NCBI RefSeq assembly: GCF_001573155.1 | Contig: NZ_JRWG01000012.1 | Span: forward strand, 1-64,000 | DNA: 64,000 bases | Direction of reading: 5' to 3' | Origin: Aequorivita aquimaris | GTDB lineage: Bacteria > Bacteroidota > Bacteroidia > Flavobacteriales > Flavobacteriaceae | In this document: piece after piece, positions 39,619-45,222 of the stretch | How positions within the stretch are numbered: position 1 is the stretch's first letter | How the letters are laid out: every line of letters begins with the position of its first letter | The notes under the pieces: model-generated | Seen by the model: the letters and a program-made list of their open reading frames with translations, nothing else | What the model was told of the DNA's origin: nothing | The model's database searches: none | Position numbers and translations under genes: made by a program

Positions 39619-40848
39619 ATGCGTGCAATTTTAGTAATATTAATAGCAATAGTAGTTTTTTCCTGTAAAGAAACTCAGGTGAATTCCGTATCTATGAAAG
39701 AAGACGTTGCCATCTTGGCCAACGATAGTTTAAACGGAAGAAAGACCGGTTCTGATGGCGAAAGGAAGGCTGCAGACTACATAGCCAAGCGGTTTGAAGA
39801 TTTAGGGTTGCAACCCAAACGTTTGGAAGGGTTTTTTCAAAAATTCACTTATAAGGCCAGTAAAAATCCACATCAGGAGGCCGAATTTACTGCAGAAAAT
39901 AACGAGAGTACCAAGACGGGTCAAAACGTGATTGCATTTTTAGATAACAAAGCGGAAAATACCGTAGTAATCGGCGCCCATTACGACCATTTGGGAATGG
40001 GCGGCGAAGGTTCGCTGTATCGCGAAGGCAAAGCAATACACAACGGTGCGGACGATAACGCGAGTGGTGTTGCGATGATGCTGCATTTGGCAGATTCGCT
40101 TCAAAAGAAAGGTTCCCCGAAAAATAACAACTACCTTTTCATTGCTTTTTCTGGGGAAGAAGAGGGGTTATTGGGTTCAAATTATTTCGTTAAAAATCCA
40201 ACTATTGATACTAAAAAAGTAACTTATATGCTGAATATGGATATGGTGGGAAGGCTTAATTCTGAAAATACTTTAGCAGTTTACGGCGTGGGAACTTCGC
40301 CTATTTTTAAACAAGCCGTAAATGCGAATGCCAGGGAATTAAAAATTGCCGAAAACGAAAGCGGTGTAGGTCCGAGCGACCACACTTCGTTTTATTTGGC
40401 AAATATTCCCGTGTTGCATTTTTTCACTGGGCAGCACGAAGACTACCATAAACCCAGCGATGACGCTGAAAAGGTGAATTTTGAGGGAATGAAAATAGTT
40501 TCAAATTACATTTTCAGCATAATAAAAGATTTGGATAACCAGCCCAAACTTCCTTTCAAAAAAACCAAAAATGAAAGCGAAGTGGTGCCAGAATTTAAAG
40601 TGACGTTGGGCGTGGTTCCCGATTATCTTTTCAGCGGAAAAGGGATGCGAATTGATGGTGTAAGTGAAGACAAACCAGCCCAAAAAGCAGGACTTCAAAA
40701 AGGCGACATTGTTGTAAAAATGGGCGATTTTGAAGTAACCGATATGATGAGTTATATGAAGAGCCTTTCAAAATTTGAAAAGGGGCAGACAGCAAAAGTA
40801 ACTATCGAAAGGGGTGGGGAATTGAAGGAGGTTGAGGTAACATTTTAA
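39619..40848 (+). CDS. M28 family aminopeptidase with C-terminal PDZ domain, lipoprotein
   Basis: 409 residues from ATG 39619 (MRAILVILIAIVVFSC, lipobox Cys16). M28 zinc ligands: His/Asp in VVIGAHYDHLG, Asp in NGADDNASG, catalytic Glu and ligand in FSGEEEGLLGS, Asp in MLNMDMVGRL, and His in LHFFTGQHEDYHKPSDD. Residues ~320-409 form a PDZ domain (VPDYLFSGKGMRIDGV ... AQKAGLQKGDIVVKMG). It is predicted to be an envelope-anchored di-zinc aminopeptidase whose PDZ domain binds substrate C-termini. It is divergent from the TolB-like lipoprotein gene. Confidence 0.92.
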   Translation: MRAILVILIAIVVFSCKETQVNSVSMKEDVAILANDSLNGRKTGSDGERKAADYIAKRFEDLGLQPKRLEGFFQKFTYKASKNPHQEAEFTAENNESTKTGQNVIAFLDNKAENTVVIGAHYDHLGMGGEGSLYREGKAIHNGADDNASGVAMMLHLADSLQKKGSPKNNNYLFIAFSGEEEGLLGSNYFVKNPTIDTKKVTYMLNMDMVGRLNSENTLAVYGVGTSPIFKQAVNANARELKIAENESGVGPSDHTSFYLANIPVLHFFTGQHEDYHKPSDDAEKVNFEGMKIVSNYIFSIIKDLDNQPKLPFKKTKNESEVVPEFKVTLGVVPDYLFSGKGMRIDGVSEDKPAQKAGLQKGDIVVKMGDFEVTDMMSYMKSLSKFEKGQTAKVTIERGGELKEVEVTF

Positions 40849-40851
40849 TTT

Positions 40852-41022
40852 TTACAGCATCATCCCACAAAAACCAAGGCCTATTATTACGGAAACGATT
40901 GAAATAATAATTAAGATTTTGCCTGTTTTCTTTTCTTTATCGGTTGCTTCTGCTCTTATAAGAACTTGACCCCAAATAAAAGTAACGAACGGAGCGAAAA
41001 CAAATAAAAGAAATAAGATCAT
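40852..41022 (-). CDS. Small membrane protein (56 aa), paralogue of the neighbour at 41039-41239
   Basis: Start CAT at 41020-41022, stop at 40852-40854. Two hydrophobic helices: residues 1-22 (MILFLLFVFAPFVTFIWGQV) and 35-55, joined by a charged loop with DKEKKTGKIL. The C-terminal half closely parallels the preceding 66-aa protein: KKTGKILIII...GLGFCGMML against KKAGKILMIL...SLGICGSMMM, including the Gly-x-Cys-Gly near the end. The gene starts 16 bases after its paralogue on the same strand, so it completes the cluster with the radical SAM and Lgt-like genes. No function is known. Confidence 0.75.
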   Translation of the reverse strand: MILFLLFVFAPFVTFIWGQVLIRAEATDKEKKTGKILIIISIVSVIIGLGFCGMML

Positions 41023-41038
41023 TTTTTTGATTTAAATA

Positions 41039-41239
41039 TTACATCATCATACTTCCACAAATCCCAAGACTTATTAAAAGATAAACTACCCCAAGAATCA
41101 TAAGTATTTTTCCTGCTTTTTTCTTTTGATTTGCAAGTAAAACCACACCAATAATAAATAATATGATTGCAGGTAAAAACATAATTGCTAAAATAATAAC
41201 GACTAATCCTGTTAAATCACCAACTTCTAAAAATATCAT
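41039..41239 (-). CDS. Small membrane protein (66 aa)
   Basis: 66 residues with two hydrophobic helices (about 10-36 and 44-64) around the charged turn NQKKKAGKIL, ending LGICGSMMM. Its start codon overlaps the stop of the radical SAM gene (ATGA, 41236-41239), indicating translational coupling. A diverged tandem copy follows at 40852-41022. I recognise no named family. Coupling to the radical SAM and Lgt-like genes suggests a membrane partner in the same process. Confidence 0.78.
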   Translation of the reverse strand: MIFLEVGDLTGLVVIILAIMFLPAIILFIIGVVLLANQKKKAGKILMILGVVYLLISLGICGSMMM

Positions 41240-42630
41240 AACGCTTCGGTTTTAAGTTTTTCCAAATACTCTTTTTTGTCGTCCCTATAAAAAAGATTCA
41301 TCGTTTCAAAGGGGATGATTTTATTATCCTTATTCACAATGTGGACGCAGGATTTTTTTATGCTGCGAACATCAAAATTGTATGCATCAATAAATTGCAT
41401 AATTATTACTCTGAAAAGATTGTCATACCCTAATTCTGGAGCATCAATATTTGGGAGGCAACATAGAATCGATTTTAAGTTTTCTTCAGCGCATTCTACC
41501 GAATTTCCCGTACTGAAAAGCTCGATCATTTTTCCTTTTAGCATTTCGTCCTGTTCGTAAACTATCGTGTTTTTACTGTTGTCCAACAAATCCTGTGGCT
41601 TGATATAACGCGTCAACGGAAAAACTTCGTCGTCCAATTTTAATGCATAACCCATCACCAAAGCATCAGGATTACAAGGAACGGGCAGTAAATCCTCTGC
41701 ATTAAAAACATCGGTCTGTTCCAGGATTTTTCTTCGGACTTCCGTCAAAGTGATTCTATCGGTTTCAGTATTAAAATCTTCCAATCTACCTGCAATTTGG
41801 GTAGGCTGAAAAGTTACCCCACGAACGCATTTTTGTTTTAAGGCGAAGTCGATAATTTTACCCATTTCGCCATCATTCAAACCTTTTTGAAGCGTAACTA
41901 CCAAAGTTGTTGAAAGATTCACTTCATTCAAATTTGCGAGCGCTTGCTGGCGGATTTTGCTTAAATCTGCACCGCGAAGGGTTTGCAAAACAGAATCTTC
42001 AAAAGAATCAAACTGCAAATATATTTCGAAATCGGGCGCGTATGTTTTCAATTTTTCTGCAAAATCCTTCTCTTTCGCAATCCGGATTCCGTTCGTATTG
42101 AGCATTAAATGTTTTATGGGAAGCGTTTTTGCATAATCCAAAATCTCAAAAAAGTGCGGATGGATTGTGGGTTCGCCACCACTAATTTGCACCACATCGG
42201 GCTCTTTTTCATTCCGAACCACCGCGTCCATCATTTTTTTAATTTCGTCCAAAGTTCGGTGCCGTCCATACGTTGGCGACGAACCCGCGTAACAAGTGGG
42301 GCAGGTTAGGTTGCAACGGTCCGTAACTTCAATAATCGTCAGGCACGAATGCTGCTCGTGGTCCGGACACAGGCCGCAATCATACGGGCAGCCGTAATGC
42401 GTTTTGGTGTTGAATGTATAGGGCATTTCCGAGGGCTTGTTATAGTTTCGGATGTTTTTGTAATATTCGGCATCGTCGGCAATTAAGACCTTGCTGTTGC
42501 CGTGTTCAGGGCAACGTTTCAACATAAAAACATTGTTTTCCTCAAAAACTATTTTGGCGTCGATTCGTTTTAAGCATTCTGGGCAAAGGCTTAAGGTGAA
42601 ATCGTAATAGGTATATTTTCTTACGGGCAT
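41236..42630 (-). CDS. Cysteine-rich radical SAM enzyme (tetraether-synthase/MJ0619-like family)
   Basis: 464 residues. The SAM cluster motif is C106-x3-C110-x2-C113 (VTDRCNLTCPTCYAGSS), followed by ISGGEPTIHP. Before it is an unusual Cys-rich region: C16/C19 and C40 with H43 (a rubredoxin- or ribbon-like site) and C81, C85, C88, C96 in YGCPYDCGLCPDHEQHSC (a probable auxiliary cluster). The C-terminal part has more conserved Cys (VPCNPDAL, CAEENLKSILCCLP, KSCVHIV). This layout resembles the archaeal tetraether lipid synthase family (Tes, MJ0619), whose members act on lipid tails; bacterial relatives are largely uncharacterised. It is encoded 15 bases after an Lgt-like gene and overlaps a small membrane protein gene by 4 bases. 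A lipid-directed reaction is inferred, not shown. Confidence 0.8.
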   Translation of the reverse strand: MPVRKYTYYDFTLSLCPECLKRIDAKIVFEENNVFMLKRCPEHGNSKVLIADDAEYYKNIRNYNKPSEMPYTFNTKTHYGCPYDCGLCPDHEQHSCLTIIEVTDRCNLTCPTCYAGSSPTYGRHRTLDEIKKMMDAVVRNEKEPDVVQISGGEPTIHPHFFEILDYAKTLPIKHLMLNTNGIRIAKEKDFAEKLKTYAPDFEIYLQFDSFEDSVLQTLRGADLSKIRQQALANLNEVNLSTTLVVTLQKGLNDGEMGKIIDFALKQKCVRGVTFQPTQIAGRLEDFNTETDRITLTEVRRKILEQTDVFNAEDLLPVPCNPDALVMGYALKLDDEVFPLTRYIKPQDLLDNSKNTIVYEQDEMLKGKMIELFSTGNSVECAEENLKSILCCLPNIDAPELGYDNLFRVIIMQFIDAYNFDVRSIKKSCVHIVNKDNKIIPFETMNLFYRDDKKEYLEKLKTEAL

Positions 42631-42636
42631 CTTTTT

Positions 42637-42664
42637 AGTTAAGAGTTAAGGGTTAAGCGTTATG
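42637..42664. repeat. Heptameric tandem repeat (AGTTAAG)
   Basis: Four 7-base units: AGTTAAG, AGTTAAG, GGTTAAG, CGTTATG. It spans the 3' end of the Lgt-like gene and the junction with the radical SAM gene, and encodes the last residues (RITLNP) of the Lgt-like protein. Confidence 0.7.
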
Positions 42665-43437
42665 CGAGCTTGCTGCTGTTTTTTTTCTTTGTTCTTTCTT
42701 CTTTTATCTCTTGTGAAAAATATCGTTTTATAATAATACAGTAGACAAATAATACAAAGTATTTGAACGCTGCTTAATCCCAAAACGAAAAATTCATTCG
42801 GTTTTAAAAATTCTATTAAAAAACGAAAACCAAAATAGGATATCATAAACCATTTGAATAATTCGCCGCTTTTCAATATTTTTTTCTTCTGAATTTGTTT
42901 CAGCGCTATTACTAAAAGTACCAAAAAAACCAGTTCGTAAAACGCAAGCGGATGTCGAAGCATTCCATCGCCCAAATCCATTCCGAAGATAGATTTAGTT
43001 TCTATTCCGTAAGTGAATTCATTTGTGCCCGAAAGAAAGCAACCAATACGGCCAATAAAAATTCCCAGAATTATTGGAAATGTAAACAAATCGCCCGACG
43101 AACGTTTTTCACCGATTATCTTTTTTGCAATCTCAACGCCCAAAAGTCCGCCGAAGAGACCGCCCATAATTGATTTTGCGTTCAGTAATTCAATCCAAGT
43201 ATTTTCAGAAAAGTTTATAAAAGGATATTCCAAAAATCCAATAATACGCGAGCCAATCAACGCGCCTAAGGTAGCGCCGATGATAATTGAAAGTCTATTG
43301 TTTAAGGAAATTTCATCCGTACTTCTTTTCCGAAGAAAAACATAGTAACGGAAACCCACGATAAAAGCGAGATATTCCATAATGAGATGAATATTCACTT
43401 TTATTCCGAAGAGAATGGGTTCGAAAGGGATTTCCAA
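42646..43437 (-). CDS. Prolipoprotein diacylglyceryl transferase (Lgt)-like membrane protein
   Basis: 263 residues with about seven transmembrane helices. Lgt features: IHLIMEYLAFIVGFRYY near the N-terminus, SIMGGLFGGLLGVEIAKK, the signature GRIGCFLSGTNEFTYG (canonical GRxGNFxNxE), HPLAFYELVFL, and RFLIEFLKPNEFF. The canonical His-Gly-Gly and final Glu of the signature are altered, so it may be a divergent paralogue rather than the housekeeping Lgt. The start is TTG at 43437: the frame is closed by a stop shortly upstream and the first ATG would remove the first helix. It heads the cluster with the radical SAM enzyme and two small membrane proteins. Confidence 0.78.
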   Translation of the reverse strand: MEIPFEPILFGIKVNIHLIMEYLAFIVGFRYYVFLRKRSTDEISLNNRLSIIIGATLGALIGSRIIGFLEYPFINFSENTWIELLNAKSIMGGLFGGLLGVEIAKKIIGEKRSSGDLFTFPIILGIFIGRIGCFLSGTNEFTYGIETKSIFGMDLGDGMLRHPLAFYELVFLVLLVIALKQIQKKKILKSGELFKWFMISYFGFRFLIEFLKPNEFFVLGLSSVQILCIICLLYYYKTIFFTRDKRRKNKEKKQQQARITLNP

Positions 43438-43477
43438 TTTTTGACTGTTTGGTTATAAATGTAGTCAATTTCAGAAA

Positions 43478-43516
43478 TAAAAAAGCCTCACAAATCTTGA
43501 AGACTTGTGAGGCTTT
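43478..43516 (-). terminator. Terminator downstream of groL
   Basis: Perfect 12-bp stem AAAGCCTCACAA (43482-43493) / TTGTGAGGCTTT (43505-43516) with an 11-base loop. On the minus strand it lies 23 bases after the groL stop and is followed by TTTATT. Confidence 0.85.
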
Positions 43517-43539
43517 AACTATTAATCACTTTTGGGATT

Positions 43540-45222
<1,683 letters not shown>

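Follow-up and report, generated by a model that had tools for sequence, protein, structure and literature searches.

A radical SAM protein of the Tes superfamily, a degenerate Lgt paralogue and Cys-bearing membrane hairpins as a candidate lipid-modifying system in Aequorivita aquimaris

Aequorivita aquimaris encodes a radical SAM protein of the Tes/MJ0619 superfamily side by side with a paralogue of Lgt and two small membrane proteins that carry a cysteine close to the C-terminus. Because the enzyme pair is co-inherited in Bacteroidota and the trio recurs in mycobacteria, we regard the trio as a candidate for an undescribed, testable lipid-modifying system. We found no description of the combination of radical SAM protein, Lgt-like protein and Cys hairpin in the literature. 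The genes are located in a stretch of 64,000 nucleotides (the window, Table 1).

Table 1. Features of the locus (positions in the window)
Feature	Position	Strand	Description
Lgt-like integral membrane protein (PF01790), Lgt paralogue	43437-42646	minus	263 aa, TTG start
Radical SAM protein, Tes/MJ0619 superfamily	42630-41236	minus	464 aa
Small protein 1	41239-41039	minus	66 aa, two membrane helices, Lys-rich loop
Small protein 2	41022-40852	minus	56 aa, diverged from small protein 1, of which it is a tandem copy

Results

The radical SAM and Lgt-like genes are inherited together

The four genes form a tight row on one strand, and the coordinates bore out the arrangement given in the original prediction: a 15-nt gap separates the Lgt-like from the radical SAM gene, which overlaps the gene of small protein 1 by 4 nt (ATGA), and a further gap of 16 nt precedes small protein 2. 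Within Aequorivita the whole module is either there or missing as one unit, at a site flanked by groEL and an M28 peptidase gene.

We analyzed the distribution of both protein families. The radical SAM family was present in 31 of 396 Bacteroidota genomes and the Lgt-like family in the same 31 plus a single further one (G054). Almost every relative inspected, down to 58% identity of the radical SAM protein, had the two genes side by side; in two genomes (G071 and G310) they were unlinked, yet both present. This pairing is far beyond chance. Because the two families occupy the same genomes even where the genes are unlinked, their products appear to be functionally coupled. A neighbourhood lacking conservation had been named beforehand as grounds to abandon the original prediction; instead, the pairing proved strongly conserved. 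The same pair was found in Mycobacterium branderi, M. avium and Nonomuraea, the distribution outside Bacteroidota being known from plasmid records. Viral contigs held remote relatives only, at about 25% identity.

The radical SAM protein belongs to a bacterial subfamily of the Tes superfamily

The radical SAM protein (Pfam domains PF23545 and PF04055) had one strong match in the PDB by sequence and profile search, namely MJ0619, the archaeal GDGT/macrocyclic archaeol synthase Tes (7tol/7tom), which is by far its closest solved relative (7tol: E 6.8e-75 with the single sequence, 2e-101 with the profile). The similarity extends over the full length at approximately 30% identity. However, the protein scored 302 bits against the NCBIfam Tes model NF045702 (equivalog cut-off 450) and 345 bits against the TrsS radical SAM (seleno)protein model NF045646 (cut-off 490), which covers residues 12-453 and is the highest-scoring named NCBIfam model. 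As it scores under both cut-offs, the protein is, judged by sequence, a member of a separate bacterial subfamily within the Tes superfamily. The assignment to the Tes/MJ0619 family in the original prediction thus holds at the level of sequence, profile and fold match, but not at that of the curated Tes cut-off, and the nearest named model is TrsS. The AlphaFold2 model, built on a shallow alignment, was weak (mean pLDDT 53) and had 7tol as its best fold match.

All cysteines named in the original prediction were confirmed, and their assignment to metal sites also rests on invariant columns of the family alignment. C16/C19/C40/H43 form a rubredoxin-like site with the same spacing as in MJ0619 (C16X2C19X20C40X2H43 vs C9X2C12X20C33X2H36). 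C81/C85/C88, joined by a histidine that is probably H91, form the N-terminal [4Fe-4S] site, a CX3CX2C motif that starts at position 81 here and at 73 in MJ0619; C96 is also present in this extra Cys array. The SAM cluster (C106/C110/C113) likewise shares its CX3CX2C spacing with Tes, and a C-terminal cluster region is present as well (C319, C390/C391, C428 and M411). The cysteines of the N-terminal cluster are missing in actinobacterial members of the family alignment.

Two residues that never vary in archaeal Tes, Met439 and Tyr459, are not both conserved in this family. The equivalent of Met439 (M411) is kept in close relatives only and replaced in distant members, and Tyr459 is replaced in all members by Ile, Val or Gly. 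MJ0619 mutants at either residue are still active (PMC9433317). MJ0619 itself binds phospholipids and stores a radical on its C-terminal cluster (PMC9433317).

The TrsS score invites a reading in which the protein acts on a small molecule other than a lipid, by TrsS-type chemistry or by the pterin methylation once proposed for MJ0619, with the Lgt-like protein as a repurposed transporter or receptor. The name of the Pfam N-terminal domain derives from that pterin proposal. Yet pterin activity is uncorroborated and unsuited to the tunnel (PMC9433317), and we ruled it out for the radical SAM protein on these published grounds. Moreover, TrsS-like members (L175 and L177) have no Lgt-like gene with them and adjoin a methyltransferase gene, as seen in M. 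vanbaalenii and Salinirubellus, whereas no SAM-dependent methyltransferase was found among the genes flanking the A. aquimaris cluster (ORFs inspected in the window). That a partner with an Lgt fold always accompanies the radical SAM protein argues for lipids, and we consider a non-lipid role highly improbable.

The Lgt-like protein retains some of the essential residues of Lgt

The Lgt-like protein matched Pfam LGT (PF01790) with 88 bits (gathering cut-off 24.9) and the profile of E. coli Lgt (5azb) with an E value of 2.6e-18, placing it in the same fold family, but reached only 58 bits against the NCBIfam lgt model TIGR00544 (equivalog cut-off 118.9). A canonical Lgt is encoded at another site in the genome, which makes the Lgt-like protein, on sequence grounds, a paralogue and not the sole Lgt of the organism. 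Its predicted model (pLDDT 72) matched no fold in the PDB, a result that leaves the sequence match to Lgt neither strengthened nor weakened.

In E. coli Lgt, Y26, H103, R143, N146 and R239 are essential, and substrate specificity depends on the head domain (PMC4728403, PMC13251419). Of these residues only the equivalents of R143 and R239 are kept in the Lgt-like family, together with the HP..YE and FRF..EF motifs of the phospholipid side. In contrast, alignments with the family and with the organism's own canonical Lgt placed M91, H17 and C133 at the positions of H103, Y26 and N146, and E151 and the periplasmic head domain are absent. The altered signature GRIGCFLSGTNE is therefore real, as the original prediction had it, and covers several of the residues essential in E. 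coli. The Y26H/N146C pair was also noted in MSMEG_5408, the second Lgt of M. smegmatis (PMC13251419).

The small proteins carry an invariant C-terminal cysteine

The original prediction treated the small proteins as bystanders, a view we had to give up. Small protein 1 ends in SLGICG plus four residues and contains Cys61, the sole invariant column of the small-protein alignment; small protein 2 ends in GLGFCGMML and matched the family model built on the small proteins (A3) with 60 bits (E 4.7e-16). Strong matches to A3 were confined to genomes bearing the radical SAM gene and lay next to it. All 80 close loci carry one to three copies in which [L/F]-G-[I/V/Y]-C stands close to the end, and divergent Bacteroidota and actinobacterial loci retain the G-x-C tail. 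Among 120 copies, position -2 relative to the cysteine is Gly in 117 and position -1 is I, V, Y, L, F or M in nearly all. When the Bacteroidota small proteins were compared with the actinobacterial ones by profile, the match was not significant (3% probability); the two groups have the motif alone in common, which may reflect convergence. Pfam and NCBIfam matches to DUF4064 and Gip immunity proteins were weak and under cut-off, and both assignments were rejected.

A basic loop precedes a hydrophobic helix that ends in G-x-C, a layout resembling a lipoprotein signal segment moved to the C-terminus. We rejected a canonical lipoprotein, as the lipobox [LVI][ASTVI][GAS]C belongs to an N-terminal signal peptide and the present motif is C-terminal with a bulky residue at -1. 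By their conservation the small proteins look like a dedicated third component of the module, and possibly its acceptor.

A small open reading frame translationally coupled to a radical SAM gene, with tandem copies and a conserved C-terminus, is also reminiscent of RiPP pathways, and the radical SAM core has weaker matches to RiPP maturases. The small protein would then be the substrate, cross-linked or modified at the cysteine or a neighbour, and the Lgt-like protein would lipidate or export the product. We find this distinctly unlikely: lipid-tail enzymes, not RiPP maturases, are the nearest relatives of the radical SAM protein, the small proteins lack a leader/core layout and are hairpins integral to the membrane, and their copy number and their sequence beyond G-x-C vary.

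Discussion

We tentatively favour, at a little short of an even chance, the view that the radical SAM protein, the Lgt-like protein and the small proteins constitute a dedicated three-component module for the modification of membrane lipids. The radical SAM enzyme would draw alkyl chains of lipids into a hydrophobic tunnel, and take a hydrogen from an unactivated tail carbon. Like MJ0619, it would park the radical on its C-terminal [4Fe-4S] cluster, and it would make a new C-C bond (less likely C-S) on acyl tails of a bacterial lipid. The Lgt-like protein keeps the phospholipid-handling core of Lgt and has lost the lipobox-acceptor side (H103, Y26, the head domain and, by exchange for Cys, N146); it may bind phospholipid and transfer or present the diacylglyceryl group to a non-standard acceptor. 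The cysteine of the small proteins, on the outer face, could be this acceptor, so that the hairpin would serve as an S-lipidated carrier or anchor, and the radical enzyme would either use or produce the lipid it bears. The lipids of Flavobacteriaceae contain ordinary fatty acids, and the A. aquimaris genome lacks the Ger-type reductase domain DUF2229 (Ger/PlsA type); the product would therefore consist of coupled iso-fatty acyl chains in ester linkage, and we downgraded a tetraether.

Several points speak against the module. TrsS, which is nearer to the radical SAM protein than Tes, has no known function. The Lgt active site is on the periplasmic side (PMC4728403) whereas the radical enzyme is expected in the cytosol, which leaves a flip step to be explained. 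The motif of the small proteins is no lipobox, and bacterial Tes homologues were not shown to couple lipids (PMC11868695). The lipid-modifying cluster of the original prediction is thus supported in part, by the Tes grouping, the conserved pair and the second Lgt, and its lipid chemistry stays putative.

Alternatively, the radical SAM enzyme could couple the acyl tails of free phospholipids to yield membrane-spanning, tetraester-like lipids of the iso-diabolic-acid type, the Lgt-like protein only binding and presenting phospholipid and the small proteins being structural subunits whose cysteine serves packing or assembly. Tes chemistry is in line with this idea (PMC9433317), as are the acceptance of ester lipids by Tes and the existence of iso-C15-derived membrane-spanning lipids in bacteria (both PMC13274423) and the abundance of iso-C15 in Flavobacterium (PMC10025309). 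Yet the sole published bacterial coupling enzyme is Mss, of another radical SAM family (PMC11868695), no membrane-spanning lipid of Flavobacteriaceae is reported in the papers that we found, ethers are unlikely in a genome lacking DUF2229, and the constant presence of an Lgt scaffold and a Cys hairpin would go unexplained. We judge free-lipid coupling rather unlikely. Mss, which acts with Ger, is likewise proposed to couple acyl tails and its 3-D models were likened to Tes (PMC13274423); it is a different radical SAM enzyme according to the literature, set apart here by description, and no Lgt-like partner or Cys hairpin is described for it. Nor is this obligate partner or the hairpin described for Tes, whose bacterial relative here resides in a host with fatty acids.

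Returning to the three-component module, an unlikely but specific version is that the degenerate Lgt loads diacylglyceryl as a thioether onto the hairpin cysteine and the Tes-type enzyme then joins the protein-bound tails to another lipid or to the hairpin protein itself. If true, this would give a membrane-spanning, protein-anchored lipid unlike known lipoproteins or tetraethers.

Palaeothermometers rest on bacterial tetraethers. The function of bacterial Tes homologues is unconfirmed (Zeng 2022, PMC8941075; Lloyd 2022, PMC9433317; the 2025 Black Sea study, PMC11868695). The present results link one large Tes-like subfamily of bacteria with a particular partner enzyme and a particular Cys-bearing mini-protein. 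As this was seen in Flavobacteriaceae, which can be cultivated, the question of what the subfamily does is answerable by a genetic test. The module would also offer a possible role for those degenerate Lgt paralogues, listed in the Lgt literature without a function, that have the Asn-to-Cys change.

A gene module between groEL and a peptidase gene

The window is part of contig 12 of a 3.15 Mb genome in 65 contigs. ORF coordinates bore out the four-gene arrangement, strand and spacings of the original prediction. There are 15 nt between the Lgt-like (prolipoprotein diacylglyceryl transferase-like) and radical SAM genes, the latter overlaps the gene of small protein 1 by 4 nt, and 16 nt separate the two small genes. 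The cluster is flanked by groEL upstream and by a convergent M28-type peptidase gene downstream. In most of the other Aequorivita genomes examined, these two flanking genes adjoin each other. The module lies exactly between them, so that its borders (43437-43540 and 40848-40852) are sharp. In seven Aequorivita genomes from which it is absent, groEL and the peptidase gene directly face each other (155 nt apart in locus L182, for example): the module is gained or lost as a unit. The radical SAM gene has its nearest named relatives (97-98% identity) in Aequorivita species (Flavobacteriaceae).

Genes of the module and their positions in the window
Feature	Position	Strand
Lgt-like gene	42646-43437	minus
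Radical SAM gene	41236-42630	minus
Small protein 1	41039-41239	minus
Small protein 2	40852-41022	minus

The radical SAM protein and the Tes superfamily

The sole strong solved-structure match of the radical SAM protein is the M. jannaschii GDGT-macrocyclic archaeol synthase Tes (MJ0619; 7tol/7tom), for which the single sequence gives E 6.8e-75 and a profile built from 18 relatives 2e-101 over nearly the full length; the next-best structure, MoaA, reaches E 4e-05. In MJ0619 a rubredoxin iron is bound by C9, C12, C33 and H36, an N-terminal cluster by C73, C77, C80 and a His; the SAM cluster has the CX3CX2C motif, and Met439 is a labile ligand of a C-terminal cluster (Lloyd et al. 2022, PMC9433317). 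Every cysteine listed in the original prediction was found at its position, and the spacing of C16, C19, C40 and H43, of C81, C85 and C88 and of C106, C110 and C113 is that of MJ0619. M411 aligns with Met439, and Tyr459 of MJ0619 is replaced by Ile; the MJ0619 mutants Y459F/L and M439A are active (PMC9433317). Residues invariant across Bacteroidota and Actinomycetota members include C16, C19, C40, H43, Q93, H94, C96, the SAM cluster, C319 and C428, and the N-terminal cluster cysteines are lost in actinobacterial members. Since the protein scores below the cut-offs of the NCBIfam models for the radical SAM family TrsS (345 bits, cut-off 490) and for Tes (302 bits, cut-off 450), and 18/18 sampled family members match both, the family is a subfamily of its own inside the Tes superfamily.

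A divergent Lgt-like protein

The Lgt-like protein scores 88 bits with Pfam LGT and 58 bits with the NCBIfam lgt equivalog (cut-off 118.9). A canonical Lgt of the same genome (contig 13, 199 bits) aligns with equivalents of E. coli Y26, H103, R143, N146 and R239 and has the head domain. All five residues are essential in E. coli Lgt, and protein-substrate specificity is set by H103 and the arm and head domains (PMC4728403, PMC13251419). The Lgt-like family keeps the R143 and R239 equivalents, HP..YE and FRF..EF and is missing the head domain; Met, Ile, Val or Leu stands at the H103 position, His in most members at that of Y26, and an invariant Cys (C133) at that of N146. The second M. smegmatis homologue, MSMEG_5408, has the same Y26H and N146C pair, and its Lgt activity is presumed low (PMC13251419). 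The Bacteroidota genome G054 encodes Gln at the Y26 position, unlike the His of other Bacteroidota members.

Co-inheritance and wider distribution

Among 396 Bacteroidota species genomes, which are not phylogenetically independent, 31 encode the radical SAM protein (E<=1e-60), and the Lgt-like protein (E<=1e-20) occurs in the same 31 and in G054. Simple shared ancestry does not account for this co-occurrence, because the distribution is patchy (16/172 genera; a strong radical SAM match in only two other Aequorivita species among those searched). In genomes G071 and G310 both genes are present on separate contigs; elsewhere the two adjoin in almost all relatives examined. At E<=0.001 nothing in G054 matched the radical SAM protein, and its Lgt-like gene is possibly a decaying remnant.

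The pair also occurs in plasmid records of Mycobacterium branderi, M. avium and Nonomuraea gerenzanensis. These actinobacterial clusters comprise the Lgt-like gene, 1-2 small membrane proteins and the radical SAM gene (~30% identity); in Nonomuraea a small protein precedes the Lgt-like gene. The mycobacterial versions (L172, L173) lie on large plasmids, and the M. branderi Lgt-like gene is preceded by two genes annotated as DUF3558, an assignment that Pfam confirms for the first. A more remote, separate group of the Tes superfamily, from Mycolicibacterium vanbaalenii and haloarchaea, is TrsS-like. Its radical SAM gene is accompanied by a methyltransferase gene, and no Lgt-like gene lies beside it in L175 and L177, the neighbourhoods read in that group. 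The L175 methyltransferase is DVU_1556-like, with CcdA and a disulfide oxidoreductase nearby. In a deep clade of Bacteroidota (L157, L158 and L159, from G158, G193 and G408) an ICMT/PEMT-type methyltransferase is a further member of the cluster; L157 and, judging by sequence, L158 additionally have a DUF4395 membrane protein, located between the radical SAM and Lgt-like genes. On viral-classed IMG/VR contigs (L189-L195, L197, L207) there are Tes/TrsS-like radical SAM genes that are only remotely related, at 21-29% identity.

Small proteins with a C-terminal cysteine

Small hydrophobic ORFs lie immediately downstream of the radical SAM gene in 80/80 loci from named genomes, each locus with 1-3 copies carrying [L/F]-G-[I/V/Y]-C-G 2-12 residues from the end. 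When 22 diverse copies are aligned, the Cys is the sole invariant column. Motif ORFs made up 116/184 small hydrophobic ORFs in the module versus 4/482 others at the same loci in close relatives, and 11/22 versus 2/118 at 12 divergent loci; Fisher p-values for this enrichment are indicative only, the loci being related. A small-protein model matched, at E<=1e-4, only those of the 396 genomes with a radical SAM gene, always adjoining it except for a G249 match on another short contig. The location of the small gene is variable (after the Lgt-like gene in L157-L159, between the two larger genes in L167, after the radical SAM gene elsewhere) and its presence constant, except at L160, where a G-x-C small gene was looked for and not found. 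The G-x-C small protein is also missing beside the G054 Lgt-like gene (L164, G054:C10).

Actinobacterial small proteins end in G-x-C-T-G-x-N-P; profile comparison with those of Bacteroidota did not prove shared descent. The basic loop, hydrophobic stretch and Cys resemble a lipoprotein signal segment placed at the C-terminus. The motif itself was rejected as a lipobox because residue -1 is bulky.

Proposed function

Bacterial Tes homologues of unknown function have been described (PMC8941075, PMC9433317, PMC11868695, PMC10087280). Full-text searches among open-access journal papers turned up no account of Cys hairpins or of an association with an Lgt-like gene.

Lgt links a diacylglyceryl group to a Cys through a thioether on the outer side of the membrane, and the carbons that Tes-type enzymes act on are unactivated ones in lipid tails. 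Ger-type ether formation is unlikely here, because DUF2229, which we take to mark Ger/PlsA, is missing from this genome. The original prediction was of a cluster modifying a membrane lipid or a lipoprotein acyl/glyceryl group. The weak point of a mechanism joining both activities is topology, as the Lgt site is periplasmic and a cytosolic location is expected for the radical enzyme. The leading rival is a system coupling the tails of free lipids, with structural partners. In the mechanism that we propose, the module would put a diacylglyceryl group on the hairpin Cys, or at least gather phospholipid there, and the radical enzyme would couple or otherwise modify the tails of that lipid.
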